A stretch of DNA of 64,000 bases from Slackia sp. GTDB lineage: Bacteria > Actinomycetota > Coriobacteriia > Anaerosomatales > Anaerosomataceae. A program made the position numbers and the translations under genes. Below are positions 13,676-40,030 of the stretch, piece by piece. The stretch lies in assembly GCA_020725885.1 (NCBI GenBank), contig DYEA01000007.1:124001-188000 (forward strand), given 5' to 3'. The number at the start of each line of letters is the position of its first letter. Within the stretch, counting starts at the first letter, position 1. The notes under the pieces are model-generated. The model did no database searches. It was given only the letters and a program-made list of their open reading frames with translations, and was not told where the DNA came from.

Positions 13676-14494
13676 GTGGCCGGACGGCGCCCGCTCACCG
13701 ACTTCTGGGTCAGGACCGCGTCCGCGCTCGCGATCGGCGCGGCCTTCTTCGCCGCAATCTTCCTCGGCGGCCCGTACGGCATCGCCGCCCTCGTCGCCGC
13801 GATCGGCTCGCTCGCCGCGTCGGAGCTGTTCGCGATACTCCGCACCGAGCACCGTCTTCCGAACGAGGTGTTCGGCGTCGCCGCCGTCGTCGTCATGCCC
13901 TTCGCTGCAGCCGCCAAAGGGCTCGCAGGCCTCGGCGCGGCGTTCGGAGCGCTCATCATCGCGTCGTTGGCCTGGCATCTGGCGTTCCGCCAGGTCCGGG
14001 CCTCGGACACCGCGGCGACGGTGTTCGGCGCAGCGTACGTCGGCTTCCTCCTGTCGCACCTCGTCTTGATCAGGCAGCTGGACGCGGGCACCGAGCTCGT
14101 GCTCGCCACCGTGGTCAGCGTCTGGGCGAACGACAGCTTCGCGTACCTGGTCGGCTCGACCATCGGCCGCCACAAGATGGCGCCGGTGATCTCGCCCGCC
14201 AAGTCCTGGGAGGGCTTCGCCGCCGGAACGCTGTTCACGACCGCTGTCTGGGTCTTCACCGGCCTGGTGGCCGACGTGGGGCTCCGGCCCGTCGCGACCG
14301 TCGGCGTCGGGCTCGCCGCCTCGATCGCCGCGGTGCTCGGCGACCTGGCGGAATCGAGGCTCAAGCGCGAAGCGCAGGTTAAAGACTCCGGACGGCTGCT
14401 CCCCGGGCACGGCGGGTTCCTTGACCGCTTCGACAGCATGATCGTCGTTGCGGCCGTCGTGTACTACACGCTGCTCGCGGCAGGTGCGCGATGA
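13676..14494 (+). CDS. cdsA: Phosphatidate cytidylyltransferase (CDP-diacylglycerol synthase)
   Basis: CdsA makes CDP-diacylglycerol from phosphatidate and CTP in the inner membrane; pgsA (42633) uses this product. The 272-residue protein consists mostly of membrane helices and ends with the family signature region: DLAESRLKREAQVKDSG, then GHGGFLDRFDSM. Upstream, ANDSFAYLVGSTIGRHK and SPAKSWEGF are also typical. The GTG start lies one base after the uppS stop, and its end overlaps dxr by 4 bp. Confidence 0.95.
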   Translation: MAGRRPLTDFWVRTASALAIGAAFFAAIFLGGPYGIAALVAAIGSLAASELFAILRTEHRLPNEVFGVAAVVVMPFAAAAKGLAGLGAAFGALIIASLAWHLAFRQVRASDTAATVFGAAYVGFLLSHLVLIRQLDAGTELVLATVVSVWANDSFAYLVGSTIGRHKMAPVISPAKSWEGFAAGTLFTTAVWVFTGLVADVGLRPVATVGVGLAASIAAVLGDLAESRLKREAQVKDSGRLLPGHGGFLDRFDSMIVVAAVVYYTLLAAGAR

Positions 14495-15627
14495 TCCGCA
14501 TCGCTGTCCTCGGCTCGACCGGCTCGATCGGCCGCCAGACCCTCGAGGTCGCGTCCCGCTTCCCGGACCGGGTCAAGATCGTCGCGCTGGCCGCAAACCG
14601 CAGCGCCGACGTCCTTGCTGCACAAACGGCAGCGACTGGCGTCACACGCGTCGCAGTCGCCGACGAAGCCGCCGCGGACCGCTTCCGGAGCCTCGTCGCT
14701 GGCGTCGAGCCGGCTGTGGGTCCGCAAGCCGTCGCCGACCTGGCTGCGCTCGAGGACGCGGACGTCGTCGTCAATGCGCTCGTCGGGGCAGCAGGGCTTC
14801 GCGCTACCGTCAACGCCTTGAAAGCCGGCAAACGCTTGGCGCTCGCGAACAAGGAGTCGCTCGTCGTCGGTGGCGACCTCATCGTGCCGCTCGTGAAGAG
14901 CCATGACGCGCTCCTGCCTGTCGACAGCGAGCACTCGGCTATCTTCCAGTGCCTCGAGGGAGAGCGGCGCGACCGCATCGCGCGCATCTGGTTGACGGCG
15001 TCAGGCGGCCCGTTCCGGGGGATGCGGCGCTCGGATCTCGACCGGGTCACCGTCGAACAGGCGCTCGCGCACCCGCGCTGGTCGATGGGGCCGAAGATCA
15101 CCGTCGACTCGGCGACGCTCATGAACAAGGGGCTCGAGGCGATCGAGGCGCACCACCTCTTCGGGGTCCCGTACCACGCTATCCAGGTCGTCATCCATCC
15201 TCAGTCGTGCGTGCACTCCATGGTCGAGTTCGTCGACGGCAGCGTGAAGGCCCACCTCGGCGCCACCGACATGCGCATCCCGATCCAATACGCGCTGAGC
15301 TATCCCGACCGATGGGACGCGCCGGTGGCCCCGGTGGATTTCGCAGCGCTCGGCCGGCTCGACTTCGAGGAGCCCGACCACGAGACATTCCCATGCCTGG
15401 GCCTTGCCCTCGAGGCAGGGAAGGCCGGGGGCACCATGCCGGCTGTGATGAACGCTGCGAACGAAGTGGCTGTGGCGAGGTTCTTGGACGGGCGCATCGG
15501 GTTCAACGACATCGCACGCGTCGTCGAAAGCGTGATGTCGCGCCACCGCGCCGCACCCGTCTGCTCACTGAAGCAGATCGAGGAGGTCGACGCGTGGGCT
15601 CGGCGGGAAGCCGAGGGTATCCTCTGA
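14491..15627 (+). CDS. dxr: 1-deoxy-D-xylulose 5-phosphate reductoisomerase
   Basis: Dxr catalyses the second step of the MEP isoprenoid pathway, turning DXP to MEP with NADPH. The N-terminal NADPH site is GSTGSIGRQTLEV. The metal and substrate region includes LPVDSEHSAIFQCLEG, LTASGGPFRG, HPRWSMGPKITVDSATLMNKGLE and the flexible loop with the conserved Met-rich and His residues (VVIHPQSCVHSMVEFVDGS). At 378 residues it is of normal size. It is coupled to cdsA and followed by rseP and ispG, another MEP gene. Confidence 0.97.
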   Translation: MIRIAVLGSTGSIGRQTLEVASRFPDRVKIVALAANRSADVLAAQTAATGVTRVAVADEAAADRFRSLVAGVEPAVGPQAVADLAALEDADVVVNALVGAAGLRATVNALKAGKRLALANKESLVVGGDLIVPLVKSHDALLPVDSEHSAIFQCLEGERRDRIARIWLTASGGPFRGMRRSDLDRVTVEQALAHPRWSMGPKITVDSATLMNKGLEAIEAHHLFGVPYHAIQVVIHPQSCVHSMVEFVDGSVKAHLGATDMRIPIQYALSYPDRWDAPVAPVDFAALGRLDFEEPDHETFPCLGLALEAGKAGGTMPAVMNAANEVAVARFLDGRIGFNDIARVVESVMSRHRAAPVCSLKQIEEVDAWARREAEGIL

Positions 15628-15690
15628 ACGCAGGCCGCTGGCACTCCGCTTGCTCGTGATGAGCGCGAGATCCCGGTCGAAAGGATGACG

Positions 15691-16938
15691 ATGGCTCTGT
15701 CTGGTCTCGACGCCGTGTTCTGGGGCGTCGTCACGTTCTCGATACTGGTGGTGCTCCACGAGGGAGGGCACTTCCTCGTCGCCCGGCTGTTCGGCGTCAC
15801 CGTGCACGAGTTCATGATCGGGCTTCCAGGCCCGGCTTTGCGGCTCCGCGGCAAGAAGACGACGTACGGCGTCACCGCGATCCCGTTCGGGGGGTACGTC
15901 CGTATCGCCGGCATGGAGCCGGGCGAGGAGGACCCGCTGCTCGCCGGGGCGCTCGGCGTCATCGCGTCTCGCGGGTCGGCCACTGTCGGAGAGCTCGCCC
16001 GGGCGCTCGGCGTGGATCAGGAACGCGCGTCGGCGATTGCGACGGTCCTCGAAGACTGGGGAGCCGTCCTTCGCGACGAAACGCACACGCTTACGCTCGC
16101 GCCCGGCCTCGACCCGAGCACGCCGGCCGACGAGATGCTCGCAGCCGTCCGCGCGAAGACGTACCGCGGCCTGTCCACGCCCAAGCGCATCGCCGTGCTG
16201 TCGGCCGGAGTGGTCGCGAACATCCTGGCGGCCGTGCTCGTGTTCACCGTCGTGCTCTCGGCGTTCGGCACCTATGAGCCGAGCAGGACGCTCGAAGACG
16301 TCCAGCCGGGATCCCCGGCGGCCGCAGCCGGCCTGCGCGCCGGGGACACGCTCGTCGCGATCGACGGCCGGCGCATCGCTTCTTGGGAGGAGTTCCAGCG
16401 CGCCGTGGCGGCGTCCAAGCCCGGCGACCGGCTGCTGCTGGAGGTCGAGCGTGGCCAGTCCACCCTGGCTGTCCCCGTCGTGCTCGGCGAACGCGACGGC
16501 CACGGCTACGTCGGCGTCCGCGTGTCGCTCGAGAAAGTGGACTACACGGTCGGCGAGGCGCTCACGCAGAGCTTCGTGTGGACGGGCATGGTCTTCCAGG
16601 CGATCGTCGGGTTCTTCCGGCCAGACACCTTCCCGCAGTCCGTCGAGAACGCTCGAAGCGTCGTGGGCATCAGCGTCATGGCTGCCGACGCCGCCAAAGC
16701 GGGGCCCCTCGACTACGCCTGGCTCGTGGCACTGCTTTCGTTGTCGCTCGGCGCGATGAACCTTATGCCTATACCTCCGTTGGACGGAGGCAAGATCGCG
16801 TTCGAAATGCTCCAGCGCATCACAGGAAAGCCGTTCGGGAGGCGCTTGACGACCGCGGTCACGGTGTTCGGCGCCGTGCTGCTGTTCTCGCTCATCGGGT
16901 ACCTCGTGTACGCTGACATCGTGCGGTTGGCGGGGTAG
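15691..16938 (+). CDS. rseP: RseP/site-2-type intramembrane metalloprotease with inserted winged-helix-like domain
   Basis: Site-2 proteases cut membrane-spanning substrates such as anti-sigma factors. The first helix holds the zinc site HEGGH (23-27), a PDZ domain spans about 198-280, and the third zinc ligand is in MNLMPIPPLDGGK (Asp365). Membrane helices also occur near 168-190, 338-362 and 387-412. Between GYVRIAGM and the second helix, where relatives have a short loop, there are about 65 extra residues (84-150) that read like a winged helix: ATVGELARALGVDQERASAI, then LEDWGAVLRDE and a TLTL strand. The ATG at 15691 was chosen over 15685 because AAAGG lies 6 bp before it. Position between dxr and ispG is the usual one. 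Confidence 0.92.
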   Translation: MALSGLDAVFWGVVTFSILVVLHEGGHFLVARLFGVTVHEFMIGLPGPALRLRGKKTTYGVTAIPFGGYVRIAGMEPGEEDPLLAGALGVIASRGSATVGELARALGVDQERASAIATVLEDWGAVLRDETHTLTLAPGLDPSTPADEMLAAVRAKTYRGLSTPKRIAVLSAGVVANILAAVLVFTVVLSAFGTYEPSRTLEDVQPGSPAAAAGLRAGDTLVAIDGRRIASWEEFQRAVAASKPGDRLLLEVERGQSTLAVPVVLGERDGHGYVGVRVSLEKVDYTVGEALTQSFVWTGMVFQAIVGFFRPDTFPQSVENARSVVGISVMAADAAKAGPLDYAWLVALLSLSLGAMNLMPIPPLDGGKIAFEMLQRITGKPFGRRLTTAVTVFGAVLLFSLIGYLVYADIVRLAG

Positions 16939-16946
16939 GAGGGGCC

Positions 16947-18020
16947 GTGGAGCGCCGAATGAGCCGGCGTGTGATGGTGGGCGACGTCCCCATCGGCGGC
17001 GGCGCGCCCGTCGTCGTGCAGTCGATGACCAACACCGACACGCGGGACCTGGAGTCGACGCTCGCGCAGATCTCCCGCCTCGCCGAAGCCGGCTGCGAGC
17101 TCGTCCGCGTGGCGATACCGCACGCCGACGCCCTCGACGGGTTCGCCGCCGTCTGCGAGTCGTCGCCGCTCCCAGTCATCGCGGACGTGCACTTCGACTA
17201 TCGCCTCGCGATAGAGGCCATCGCCCGGGGTGCGGCGAAAGTCCGGATCAACCCGGGCAACATCGGCTCGCTCGACCGCGTCGACGCCGTCGTCGATGCG
17301 GCCGGGGCAGCAGGCGTCCCAATCCGCATCGGGGTGAACGCCGGATCGCTGGCTCCTGAGCACCGGGACCTCGACTGGCCGCTGGAAGACAAGCTGGTCG
17401 CGAGCGCCGTGCGCTTCTGCGAGCACGTTGCGGGCCGAGGCTTCGAAGACATCGTCGTGTCGGCGAAAGCGTCGTCCGTGCCTGCCACCGTGCGCGCGTA
17501 CCGCCGTCTCGCGGACGAGATCCCGTACCCGCTGCACCTCGGCGTGACCGAAGCCGGGACGGCGTTCTCGGGCACCGTCAAGTCCGCCGTCGGCATCGGC
17601 GTCCTGCTCGAGGAGGGCATCGGGGACACGATCAGGGTCTCGCTGACCGCAGACCCGGTCGAGGAGGTCGCGGTGGCGTGGGAGATCCTCGCCGCCCTCG
17701 ACCTGCGGCGCCGCTCGCCTGAGCTCATCTCGTGCCCCACGTGCGGCCGGTGCGAGGTCGACCTCGTCGGCATCGCCACGGAGGTCGAGCGCAGGCTGCG
17801 CTCTCTCGACGTGCCGCTCAAGGTCGCCGTCATGGGCTGCGCCGTCAACGGCCCAGGAGAGGCGCGCGAGGCGGACGTCGGCGTGGCGGCCGGACGGGGC
17901 GTCGGGCTCGTCTTCCGGCGCGGCGAACCGGTGCGCAAGGTCCCGGAAGACCGCATCGTGGACGCGCTGTTCGAGGAGATCGACGCCCTCGCACGGGAGT
18001 CGCGCACCGAGCGCGCGTAG
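16947..18020 (+). CDS. ispG: 4-hydroxy-3-methylbut-2-enyl diphosphate synthase (IspG)
   Basis: IspG carries out the penultimate step of the MEP pathway, a reductive ring opening using a [4Fe-4S] cluster and an electron donor such as flavodoxin or ferredoxin. The TIM-barrel part starts near PVVVQSMTNTDT; the C-terminal cluster domain has SCPTCGRCEVD (Cys263, Cys266) and GCAVNGPGEA (Cys298, Glu305). The 357-residue length is normal for the bacterial two-domain type. The GTG start is preceded by TAGGAGGGG. It lies 8 bp after rseP. Confidence 0.96.
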   Translation: MERRMSRRVMVGDVPIGGGAPVVVQSMTNTDTRDLESTLAQISRLAEAGCELVRVAIPHADALDGFAAVCESSPLPVIADVHFDYRLAIEAIARGAAKVRINPGNIGSLDRVDAVVDAAGAAGVPIRIGVNAGSLAPEHRDLDWPLEDKLVASAVRFCEHVAGRGFEDIVVSAKASSVPATVRAYRRLADEIPYPLHLGVTEAGTAFSGTVKSAVGIGVLLEEGIGDTIRVSLTADPVEEVAVAWEILAALDLRRRSPELISCPTCGRCEVDLVGIATEVERRLRSLDVPLKVAVMGCAVNGPGEAREADVGVAAGRGVGLVFRRGEPVRKVPEDRIVDALFEEIDALARESRTERA

Positions 18021-18084: not shown

Positions 18085-18492
18085 ATGTCCGAGGACAAGA
18101 TCCGCGTCGCCGTCGTCGGCGCAGGGCGTACCGGCGCCCCGCTCATCGAGGCCTTCCTCAAGCTTCCATACGTCGAGGTCGTCGGAATCGCGGACAAGAA
18201 CCCAGACTGCCTCGGGGCGCGCATCGCCCGGGAACGTGGGATCTTCTTCACCGAGTACCCTGACGTGCTCACGGCGAAGGGCTCGGAGATCGACGTCATC
18301 ATCGAGGTCACCGGCGACCCGTCGGTCAAGCCTGCGCTCAAGCGGGCCTTCGCGCTGCAGGGCAACACCACGACCATCATCGTCCACGACCTGGTCGCGC
18401 GCCTCATCCTGAGCCTTGCGACCGACGCGGACCACCTCGTGGAGACCTATCACCCCCACGACAAAGGCATCGGGCCCGTCGCGCAGGACTGA
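18085..18492 (+). CDS. Small NAD(P)-binding Rossmann protein of unknown function
   Basis: The 135-residue protein consists of a dinucleotide-binding Rossmann domain alone. It begins RVAVVGAGRTGAPLIEAF, has an acidic end of strand 2 (GIADKN), then a second half with DVIIEVTGDPSVKPALKRA. The pattern recalls the NAD-binding domain of homoserine dehydrogenases or Gfo/Idh/MocA oxidoreductases, but no catalytic domain follows. It has a good site (GGGAGGAG) before its ATG, its own possible promoter and normal codon use, so it looks intact rather than a gene remnant. It precedes proS by 39 bp. A sensor or regulatory subunit is possible; I cannot assign a substrate. Confidence 0.8.
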   Translation: MSEDKIRVAVVGAGRTGAPLIEAFLKLPYVEVVGIADKNPDCLGARIARERGIFFTEYPDVLTAKGSEIDVIIEVTGDPSVKPALKRAFALQGNTTTIIVHDLVARLILSLATDADHLVETYHPHDKGIGPVAQD

Positions 18493-37789: not shown

Positions 37790-40030
37790 ATGGGACGCAC
37801 TGCTGGACGGACTCGGAGATCGTCGAAGGCGAACGGAACGGCACGTGCGGACGCCCGGCCGCCCGCACGGCGGCGAGTGCTTGACGACGACGCTCGGCGG
37901 GAGGTCGCCGGCGTCCTGGTGAGCGCCGCGGCGCTTGCGCTCGCGATCTCCGTCGTGAACCCGTCCGCAGGCGTCGTGCCCGGCTTCGTGGCCCGCACGC
38001 TCGGCCTCGGCATCGGCATCGGAGCATACGTCTTGCCCTTCGTGGTGCTCCTCTGGGGAGCGAGCTTCTTCGTCCGCTCGGTGCGGATCGATGAGGTCCG
38101 CGTCGGCGCAGGGCTCGCGCTGGTCGTCGTGTCGGTCATCTCGATCGCCGCGGTCGGCGCCCCGATCGCGGTGTTCTGGGAGCCCGACGTCCTCACGGCC
38201 CGCGGAGGGTACCTCGGCGGGGGGATCGCCTGGGCCTCGCGCATGCTGTTCGGACCGACGATCTCCTACGTGCTGCTCGCCGCCGCCGTCGTCGTCGGAC
38301 TGGTGATAGCCGGAATGCCGCTCTCGGAGCTGCTCGAGAAGGTGGTCCGCGCAGCCCGCCGGGCACCGGAGGGCGCTTCGTTCAACGACGCCCCGTCGCC
38401 CCGGCGACGGGCTCCTGAGCAGCCGACGCTTCCGCTGACGGACGCTGAGGCCGACCGCGCCGCCGTCGAGGCCCTCCCGAGCCCGAAACGCCGCCGCACC
38501 GACCCTGAAGCCCGCCGCGCCACGGTGCCGACGACGGCAGTCGTCGCTCCGCGGCCCGCGCAGGGCTTCGAGCTGCCGCCGATGGGCCTGCTCAAGCGGA
38601 GCTCGACGTCCGCAGGCGTCCATCGCGCGAACGAGCGCGAGCTGAAGACCACCGCGCAGGTCATCGAGCAGACCCTGGCGACGTTCGACATCCCCGCGCG
38701 CGTCGTGGACTGGATCCCGGGACCGACGGTCACGATGTTCGAGGTCGAGATCGCCCGCGGCGTCAAGGTCGGGCGGGTGACGGCGCTCGCAGACGACCTT
38801 GCGCTCGCGCTCGCGGCGCCGACCATCCGCATCCTCGCCCCGATCCCCGGCAAGAGCTACGTCGGCATCGAGGTGCCGAACGAGCGGCGCGCCACGGTCA
38901 CGCTCGCCGACGTCCTCGAAGGCGGGGCGGCGTCGCACCCGAGCCCGCTGCTGCTCGCAATCGGGAAGGACGTCGCGGGCGACGCCGTGCTCGCCGACCT
39001 CGCGCCGATGCCGCACCTGCTCATCGCCGGCGCGACAGGCACGGGCAAGAGCGTGTGCATCAACGCCATCCTCATGTCCATCCTCATGCGGGCGACGCCG
39101 GCCGAGGTGCGCCTCATCCTCATCGACCCGAAGCGCATCGAGCTCAGCCTCTACAACGGCGTCCCGCACCTGTACGTGCCGGTCGTCACCGAGCCGAAGG
39201 AGGCCGCGTCGGCGCTTGCGTGGGCGGTCAGCGAGATGGAGTCGCGCCTGAAGCAGCTGCAGCGCGCCAACGCGCGCAACATCGCCCAGTACAACGCGCT
39301 CGTCCACGACGGCCGCGGCCCGGAGGGCGCCGAGCCGATGCCGTACATCGTCATCGTCATCGACGAGTTGGCGGACCTCATGCTCGTCGCCGCCAAGGAA
39401 GTCGAGGACTCGATCTGCCGGCTCTCGGCGCTCGCCCGCGCCGCGGGCATCCACCTCGTGGTCGCCACGCAGCGCCCGAGCACCGACATCATCACCGGCC
39501 TGATCAAGACCAACATCACGAACCGCATCGCATTCGCGGTCTCGTCCGGCATCGACAGCCGCGTCATCCTCGACCAGCCCGGCGCCGAGAAGCTCGTCGG
39601 GCAGGGCGACATGCTCTTCTCGATGCCCGTCTGGCCGAAACCGAAGCGCATCCAGGGCGCCTTCGTCACCGAAGACGAGATCATGGCGGTCGTCGACCAC
39701 CTCAAAGCGCAAGCCGAGCCCGACTACCACGAGGAGATCTTGCACCTCAAAGTGACCCCCGGCGGCGCGGCGGACGCGGAGGGGGAGGAGGACCCGCTGC
39801 TGTGGGAGGCCGCCGACATCGTCGTGACGACCGGCATGGGCTCGACGTCGCTCCTGCAGCGGCGTCTCAAGGTCGGCTACGCACGGGCAGGACGCATCAT
39901 GGACATGCTGGAGTCGCGCGGCATCGTCGGCCCGCCGGACGGCAGCAAGCCCCGCGAGGTGCTGGTCGACGTCGAGGAGCTGGAGGCGATCAAGGCCTTC
40001 GAGCGAGAGAGCCGCGCGAGCGGGGACTGA
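37790..40030 (+). CDS. ftsK: DNA translocase FtsK/SpoIIIE
   Basis: FtsK pumps chromosomal DNA through the closing septum. Four membrane helices occupy about residues 38-185, followed by a charged linker (about 190-290) and the motor domain with Walker A GATGTGKSV and Walker B IVIVIDELADLM. The C-terminal gamma winged helix (TSLLQRRLKVGYARAGRIMDMLESRG, spaced) reads the orienting DNA motifs. At 746 residues the linker is short, like SpoIIIE. Works with XerC at dimer resolution. Confidence 0.95.
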   Translation: MGRTAGRTRRSSKANGTARADARPPARRRVLDDDARREVAGVLVSAAALALAISVVNPSAGVVPGFVARTLGLGIGIGAYVLPFVVLLWGASFFVRSVRIDEVRVGAGLALVVVSVISIAAVGAPIAVFWEPDVLTARGGYLGGGIAWASRMLFGPTISYVLLAAAVVVGLVIAGMPLSELLEKVVRAARRAPEGASFNDAPSPRRRAPEQPTLPLTDAEADRAAVEALPSPKRRRTDPEARRATVPTTAVVAPRPAQGFELPPMGLLKRSSTSAGVHRANERELKTTAQVIEQTLATFDIPARVVDWIPGPTVTMFEVEIARGVKVGRVTALADDLALALAAPTIRILAPIPGKSYVGIEVPNERRATVTLADVLEGGAASHPSPLLLAIGKDVAGDAVLADLAPMPHLLIAGATGTGKSVCINAILMSILMRATPAEVRLILIDPKRIELSLYNGVPHLYVPVVTEPKEAASALAWAVSEMESRLKQLQRANARNIAQYNALVHDGRGPEGAEPMPYIVIVIDELADLMLVAAKEVEDSICRLSALARAAGIHLVVATQRPSTDIITGLIKTNITNRIAFAVSSGIDSRVILDQPGAEKLVGQGDMLFSMPVWPKPKRIQGAFVTEDEIMAVVDHLKAQAEPDYHEEILHLKVTPGGAADAEGEEDPLLWEAADIVVTTGMGSTSLLQRRLKVGYARAGRIMDMLESRGIVGPPDGSKPREVLVDVEELEAIKAFERESRASGD

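Follow-up and report, generated by a model that had tools for sequence, protein, structure and literature searches.

The rseP locus and the domain inserted before TM2

The window, a stretch of 64,000 nucleotides from Slackia sp., carries an rseP gene in a cluster of the usual order, uppS-cdsA-dxr-rseP-ispG-(small Rossmann protein)-proS. The genes and features considered here have the following window coordinates:

14491..15627, + strand: dxr (DXP reductoisomerase), upstream neighbour of rseP (Pfam DXP_reductoisom, DXPR_C)
15685..16938, + strand: rseP, 417 aa, RIP metalloprotease RseP, an M50 site-2 protease of group I (TIGR00054, Peptidase_M50)
15757..15771, + strand: HEGGH zinc motif in TM1, residues 25-29 (sequence)
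15889..15906, + strand: GGYVRI, residues 69-74, counterpart of the MRE beta-loop strand of E. coli RseP (alignment; AlphaFold2 strand E70-74)
15931..16098, + strand: predicted winged-helix domain between the MRE region and TM2, residues 83-138 (AlphaFold2, Foldseek, VIA-align, MarR_2)
16018..16056, + strand: third helix, at the recognition-helix position, residues 112-124, acidic (AlphaFold2, charge count)
16054..16059, + strand: conserved Asp-Trp, residues 124-125 (D/E in 93% and W in 81% of 54 class sequences)
16126..16152, + strand: linker helix, residues 148-156, from the winged helix to the TYRG..KR segment before TM2 (AlphaFold2)
16177..16266, + strand: TM2, residues 165-194 (helix in the AlphaFold2 model)
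16282..16494, + strand: single extracytoplasmic PDZ domain, residues about 200-270 (PDZ_6, 1e-13)
16759..16791, + strand: NLMPIPPLDGG metal-ligand motif, residues 359-369 (sequence)
16947..18020, + strand: ispG/gcpE, downstream neighbour of rseP (Pfam GcpE, 2e-141)

Judged from its sequence, the RseP encoded in the window belongs to group I of the site-2 proteases by all of the features tested. It matches TIGR00054 at 204.6 bits (curated cut-off 147.55) and Peptidase_M50 (E = 4e-46), and it contains the RseP motif set of HExxH in TM1, the GGYxR MRE strand and NxxPxPxLDG. In the RseP alignment H25, E26, G28 and H29 are almost invariant, and G69, G70, Y71, I74, N359 and L366-G369 are invariant. 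At least one extracytoplasmic PDZ domain is expected in a group I protease (review PMC10202637), and one such domain is found here. It is an ordinary single-PDZ RseP of Coriobacteriia. There are a few further M50 matches in the 1.83 Mb genome, and the window rseP is the only RseP-like one. An Rfam scan of the rseP neighbourhood gave no match. The 135-aa Rossmann-like protein between ispG and proS (18085-18492) has a DapB_N match just under the cut-off and looks like a stand-alone NAD-binding domain.

It is evident that residues 83-158 stand where other RsePs have a short loop, between GGYVR (69-73) and TM2. The distance from GGY to the basic motif before TM2 is about 98 residues in the window RseP, compared with 25-36 residues in 18 of 20 loci encoding insert-less RsePs in other families of the phylum (lengths measured by motif or by eye; of the other two loci, one was anchored off the motif and one is the f44 sequence described below). 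The loop is short as well in RsePs of Aerophobetes and Myxococcota. One RseP of another phylum family (L090, f44) has a longer, charged loop at this site, with 62 residues from GGY to TM2, which is unlike a winged helix.

In the AlphaFold2 model of the full-length protein (input alignment of 14 proteins; mean pLDDT 89), the insert is folded as H83-96, E98-100, H101-108, H112-124, E128-130 and E135-138, with block-mean pLDDT of 91-96. The same fold is obtained when the insert is modelled alone (pLDDT 91). Residues 83-138, with the order H-E-H-H-E-E and a wing, are predicted to form a textbook winged helix. Foldseek matches of the insert model are chiefly MarR proteins (best E = 9e-4), and VIA-align superimposes the insert on Zalpha (Z = 10.5, 0.8 A over 59 residues), MarR 4YIF (Z = 10.1), IclR 1MKM (Z = 9.5, 1.5 A over 63 residues) and ESCRT-II 3CUQ (Z = 9.5, rmsd 1.9 over 63 residues). 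The isolated insert matches Pfam MarR_2 (E = 4e-7, 30.5 bits) above the gathering cut-off of 27, and the whole window RseP stays just under it at 26.5 bits. By hhalign, the insert is similar to IclR (E = 5e-11), MarR (about 3e-7) and FtsK-gamma (about 5e-7). These results bear out the initial annotation, which had proposed a winged-helix-like domain at 15940-16140 (residues 86-152; the winged helix proper is 83-138) between the GYVRIAGM region and the second membrane helix, in place of the usual short loop. The strand pair that it described as ending in TLTL corresponds to strands E128-130 and E135-138 of the predicted wing, the modelled insert matches winged-helix families, and the insert is neither predicted to be disordered nor found with another fold in ordinary RsePs.

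The insert is not a chance resemblance, because the MarR_2 E-value is accompanied by the same insert in all 29 relatives first aligned and in almost every Coriobacteriia genome that could be assessed; this breadth, and an insert that is in frame, also rule out an assembly or frame artefact. Since the insert begins about 10 residues past the GGYVR strand and stops just before TM2, it should lie in the cytosol, opposite the PDZ domain. By this topology the winged helix must be cytosolic and the PDZ domain, which follows TM2, on the other side of the membrane, which agrees with the cytoplasmic loop originally suggested.

Two labels for the domain were rejected. It passes MarR_2 in isolation but has neither the surface charge nor the N- and C-terminal dimerisation helices of a MarR regulator; before the linker there are only helices 83-96, 101-108 and 112-124 and the wing. 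It matches the FtsK-gamma family PF09397 at 16.7-17.5 bits (gathering cut-off 30.6), and the residues that contact KOPS differ. We claim no origin from FtsK-gamma because hhalign scores MarR equally and IclR better. An FtsK gamma domain is present at about 39785-39967, about 23 kb downstream of rseP, and opens with EEDPLL like the insert; several relatives show a similar distance between rseP and ftsK.

Distribution, loss and constraint of the insert

Aligning homologues from related genomes, a check suggested at the outset, revealed the insert in 29 of 29 relatives, and it is also present in representatives of all other sampled families of the class (f17, f18, f19 and f86-f91). A profile of the insert matches 283 of 298 Coriobacteriia genomes, and 265 of the 270 good ones. 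One of the 283 matches (E = 1e-3) comes from a genome in which no RseP was found (G515) and is probably stray. Of the 15 unmatched genomes, four (family f87, three genera) have an RseP that is intact but short in the loop; in another, G528, an insert is present but divergent and was overlooked by the profile, and the remaining ones have no complete RseP in the assembly. Over 296 genomes of the phylum, the profile scores 45-91 bits in 26 of 26 class members and not above about 30 bits in any non-member, and it did not reveal the insert in any RseP outside the class. The seven weak out-of-class matches that were read (E = 1e-4 to 1e-6) were dismissed, being five IclR-type regulators, one FtsK and one MutY-like protein. 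Among the matches listed in a scan of 85,000 species, the named contigs bearing the insert are labelled Coriobacteriia, Coriobacteriales, Coriobacteriaceae or simply Actinobacteria/Actinomycetes, hence the name Coriobacteriia for the class.

On an RseP tree built by a quick method with the insert columns left out, the insert needs two changes. When outgroups are included, the four f87 sequences nest within insert-bearing clades with starred support. These results are best read as a single gain of the insert at the root of the class and a single loss, in f87. In the four f87 sequences (L147-L150) the GM motif after GGYVR is altered to ALEGS or ALEGE. The insert is dispensable for RseP, since f87 (three sampled genera, four genomes) lives without it. 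Families f17 and f19 (L035-L040 and L045-L053) have an additional conserved segment of 35-45 residues between the winged helix and TM2, RDA..L.T.YD.GHDF...T..G, which was not found in the order of the window organism. The insertion of this domain into a core stress protease is thus real, ancient and conserved.

The winged helix is under purifying selection that is stronger than that on the PDZ domain and weaker than that on the catalytic core. Within two genera, dN/dS is 0.08-0.30 for the winged helix, 0.13-0.53 for the PDZ domain and 0.01-0.15 for the catalytic core. Among 54 class sequences, the insert varies least at L90, A105, A115, L122, D124 (93% D/E), W125 (81%) and the linker helix, in whose region positions 151, 152, 156, 159 and 160 are conserved. 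The third helix varies among the class sequences in its exposed N-terminal half, and because this exposed face is variable it offers no obvious conserved interface. No conserved Cys/His metal site was found in the insert in the class alignment.

In one family, f18, the RsePs (L041-L044, L054 and L066-L068; 361-380 aa) have the winged helix and are devoid of the PDZ domain. TM2 joins almost directly to the segment before TM3, no PDZ domain was found by Pfam in these proteins, and their TIGR00054 score (139.6) falls just under the cut-off of 147.55. The loss of the PDZ domain is a single event on the RseP tree (100* support). The winged helix has thus outlasted the PDZ domain in f18. A review (PMC10202637) describes the PDZ tandem of E. 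coli as a presumed size filter against uncleaved RseA, and the f18 RsePs are a natural experiment on how RseP is gated once that filter is gone. Fold, position, class-wide conservation, the single loss, purifying selection, acidity and retention without a PDZ domain are all computed properties of the insert.

Surface charge and the possible role of the winged helix

The surface of the insert, mapped from the alignment, is acidic. The net charge of the helix-turn-helix and wing ranges from -2 to -11 (mean -5.7) and is negative in 54 of 54 class sequences, compared with +3 to +4 (mean +3.9) for the same part of 31 FtsK-gamma sequences and -4 to +3 (mean -0.7) for that of 28 MarR proteins, both from relatives. 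The ranges overlap little; the Mann-Whitney tests (P = 3e-12 and 6e-15) overstate independence, as the sequences are related. The 17-residue stretch 111-127, which includes the third helix, has a mean net charge of -3.3 over the 54 sequences. FtsK-gamma contacts KOPS through N1296, R1300 and E1303 (PMC2533119), and the matching residues in the window RseP are E113, A117 and T120. Position 117, which corresponds to the base-contacting R1300, is K or R in 7% of the 54 sequences.

These observations bear on the DNA binding that was initially suggested; in such a reading the protease would hold DNA near the membrane, or autoregulate, through the winged helix. The nearest relatives of the insert in sequence and structure (MarR, IclR, FtsK-gamma and Zalpha) do bind DNA, but all 54 inserts are acidic in the helix-turn-helix and wing, 93% are without a basic residue at the R1300 position, the recognition helix is variable, and the wing of the window RseP (RDETHTLTL) has scarcely any basic side chain. 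DNA binding as the main role is rejected on charge and the missing contact residues, and we regard a membrane-tethered DNA-binding domain as very improbable. The acidic surface points to a protein, rather than DNA, as what such a domain would grip, and the sensing or binding of a partner is the half of the earlier proposal that survives. Winged helices that bind protein exist, for example in ESCRT-II.

We tentatively favor a role in protein docking, in which the domain would act in the cytosol, close to the strand that clamps the substrate, to recruit or gate substrates or to bind a partner; we give this a little less than an even chance. The winged helix would have been inserted in the class ancestor into the cytoplasmic loop just past the MRE strand and before TM2, where its acidic helix-turn-helix face, the conserved Asp-Trp patch or both could hold either a regulator or the cytosolic part of a substrate (an anti-sigma factor together with its sigma factor, for example). 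The extracytoplasmic PDZ domain would then share the control of RseP cleavage with a module inside the cell. We infer the docking role from charge, place and conservation, and infer the partner and the gating as well. In E. coli RseP, the MRE loop reaches in from the cytoplasm and the substrate is held on it as an extended strand; residues of the GGYVK strand contact the substrate and crosslink to it (PMC4597795). A domain at the insert site can therefore touch the cytosolic part of a substrate during transmembrane cleavage, which argues for a docking or gating module. The placement about 10 residues after GGYVR, the location opposite the PDZ domain and the retention in f18 without a PDZ domain also count in its favor, as do the confident fold prediction, the presence in nearly the whole class, the single gain and loss, the dN/dS values and the acidity. 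By analogy, the cytosolic linker between the transmembrane and CBS domains of SpoIVFB, which packs on and binds pro-sigmaK (PMC11486902), is a precedent for cytosolic elements that matter in site-2 proteases. Elsewhere in the genome (contig C6, about 377 kb, L195), an ECF-type sigma gene is followed by a gene for a single-TM zf-HC2 protein (E = 8e-4, under the Pfam cut-off), a possible substrate of RseP.

Counting against docking are the variable exposed face of the third helix, the f87 genera that live without the insert, and the chance that the Asp-Trp patch only packs onto the protease itself. Alternatively, the winged helix could be a structural brace with no partner of its own, lying against the cytosolic face of the protease and lending rigidity to the MRE sheet or TM2. 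The most conserved insert positions are the core, the Asp-Trp pair and the linker helix, which could constitute an intramolecular interface; a brace, however, would not require all parts of a winged helix, nor a helix-turn-helix face that is acidic and varies fast, and other RsePs, as well as the f87 genera that lost the insert, manage without it. We consider a brace rather unlikely, though a serious contender. It is clearly less probable that the inserts, being MarR-like, pair two proteases or bind a small cytosolic switch ligand. MarR and IclR proteins dimerise and bind ligands, and there is a precedent on the cytosolic side in the CBS domains that group III site-2 proteases carry, but the insert comprises helices 1-3 and the wing without the MarR dimerisation helices, and it has no conserved Cys/His metal site.

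The docking reading can be extended to a second control point across the class, in which the acidic winged helix, next to the strand that clamps the substrate, would act in the cytosol as a gate or adaptor and recognise either a cytosolic regulator or the inner part of the substrate. In f18, where it outlived the PDZ domain, permission for site-2 cleavage would come from the cytosol rather than from outside. This extension is speculative, and we think it has a modest chance of being right.

Comparison with known site-2 proteases

RseP itself is well known, and the internal winged helix is an addition to a group I site-2 protease. The structures of RseP, RasP and Rip1 (PDB 7W6X, 9A6W and 9J82) are the top Foldseek matches of the full window model and share with it the catalytic core, the MRE strand, the LDGG motif, the PDZ domain and the gene neighbourhood, but no winged helix is present between the MRE region and TM2 in solved or read relatives outside the class. 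E. coli RseP has two PDZ domains, compared with one in the window RseP. Among the open-access papers that we found, there is no mention of a winged helix in RseP, or of RseP in Coriobacteriia or Eggerthella, in line with the initial impression that the insert is undescribed.

MarR, IclR and FtsK-gamma winged helices are similar to the insert in fold and sequence, but they are DNA binders with a neutral or basic helix-turn-helix and wing, whereas the insert is acidic and part of a membrane protease. The likeness to the protein-binding winged helices of ESCRT-II is in fold only. SpoIVFB and mjS2P, of group III, likewise have a cytosolic accessory domain that acts on substrate engagement (PMC11486902); theirs is a C-terminal CBS domain without a PDZ domain, in contrast to the internal winged helix before TM2 in the window RseP. 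Bacterial site-2 proteases are classified by their extra domain, which is a PDZ domain in group I and a CBS domain in group III and is lacking in groups II and IV (PMC10202637). The winged helix in the cytosolic loop is a further site-2 protease architecture, fixed across nearly the whole of a class of gut and environmental Actinomycetota, in a protease that relays stress signals by cleavage in the membrane.
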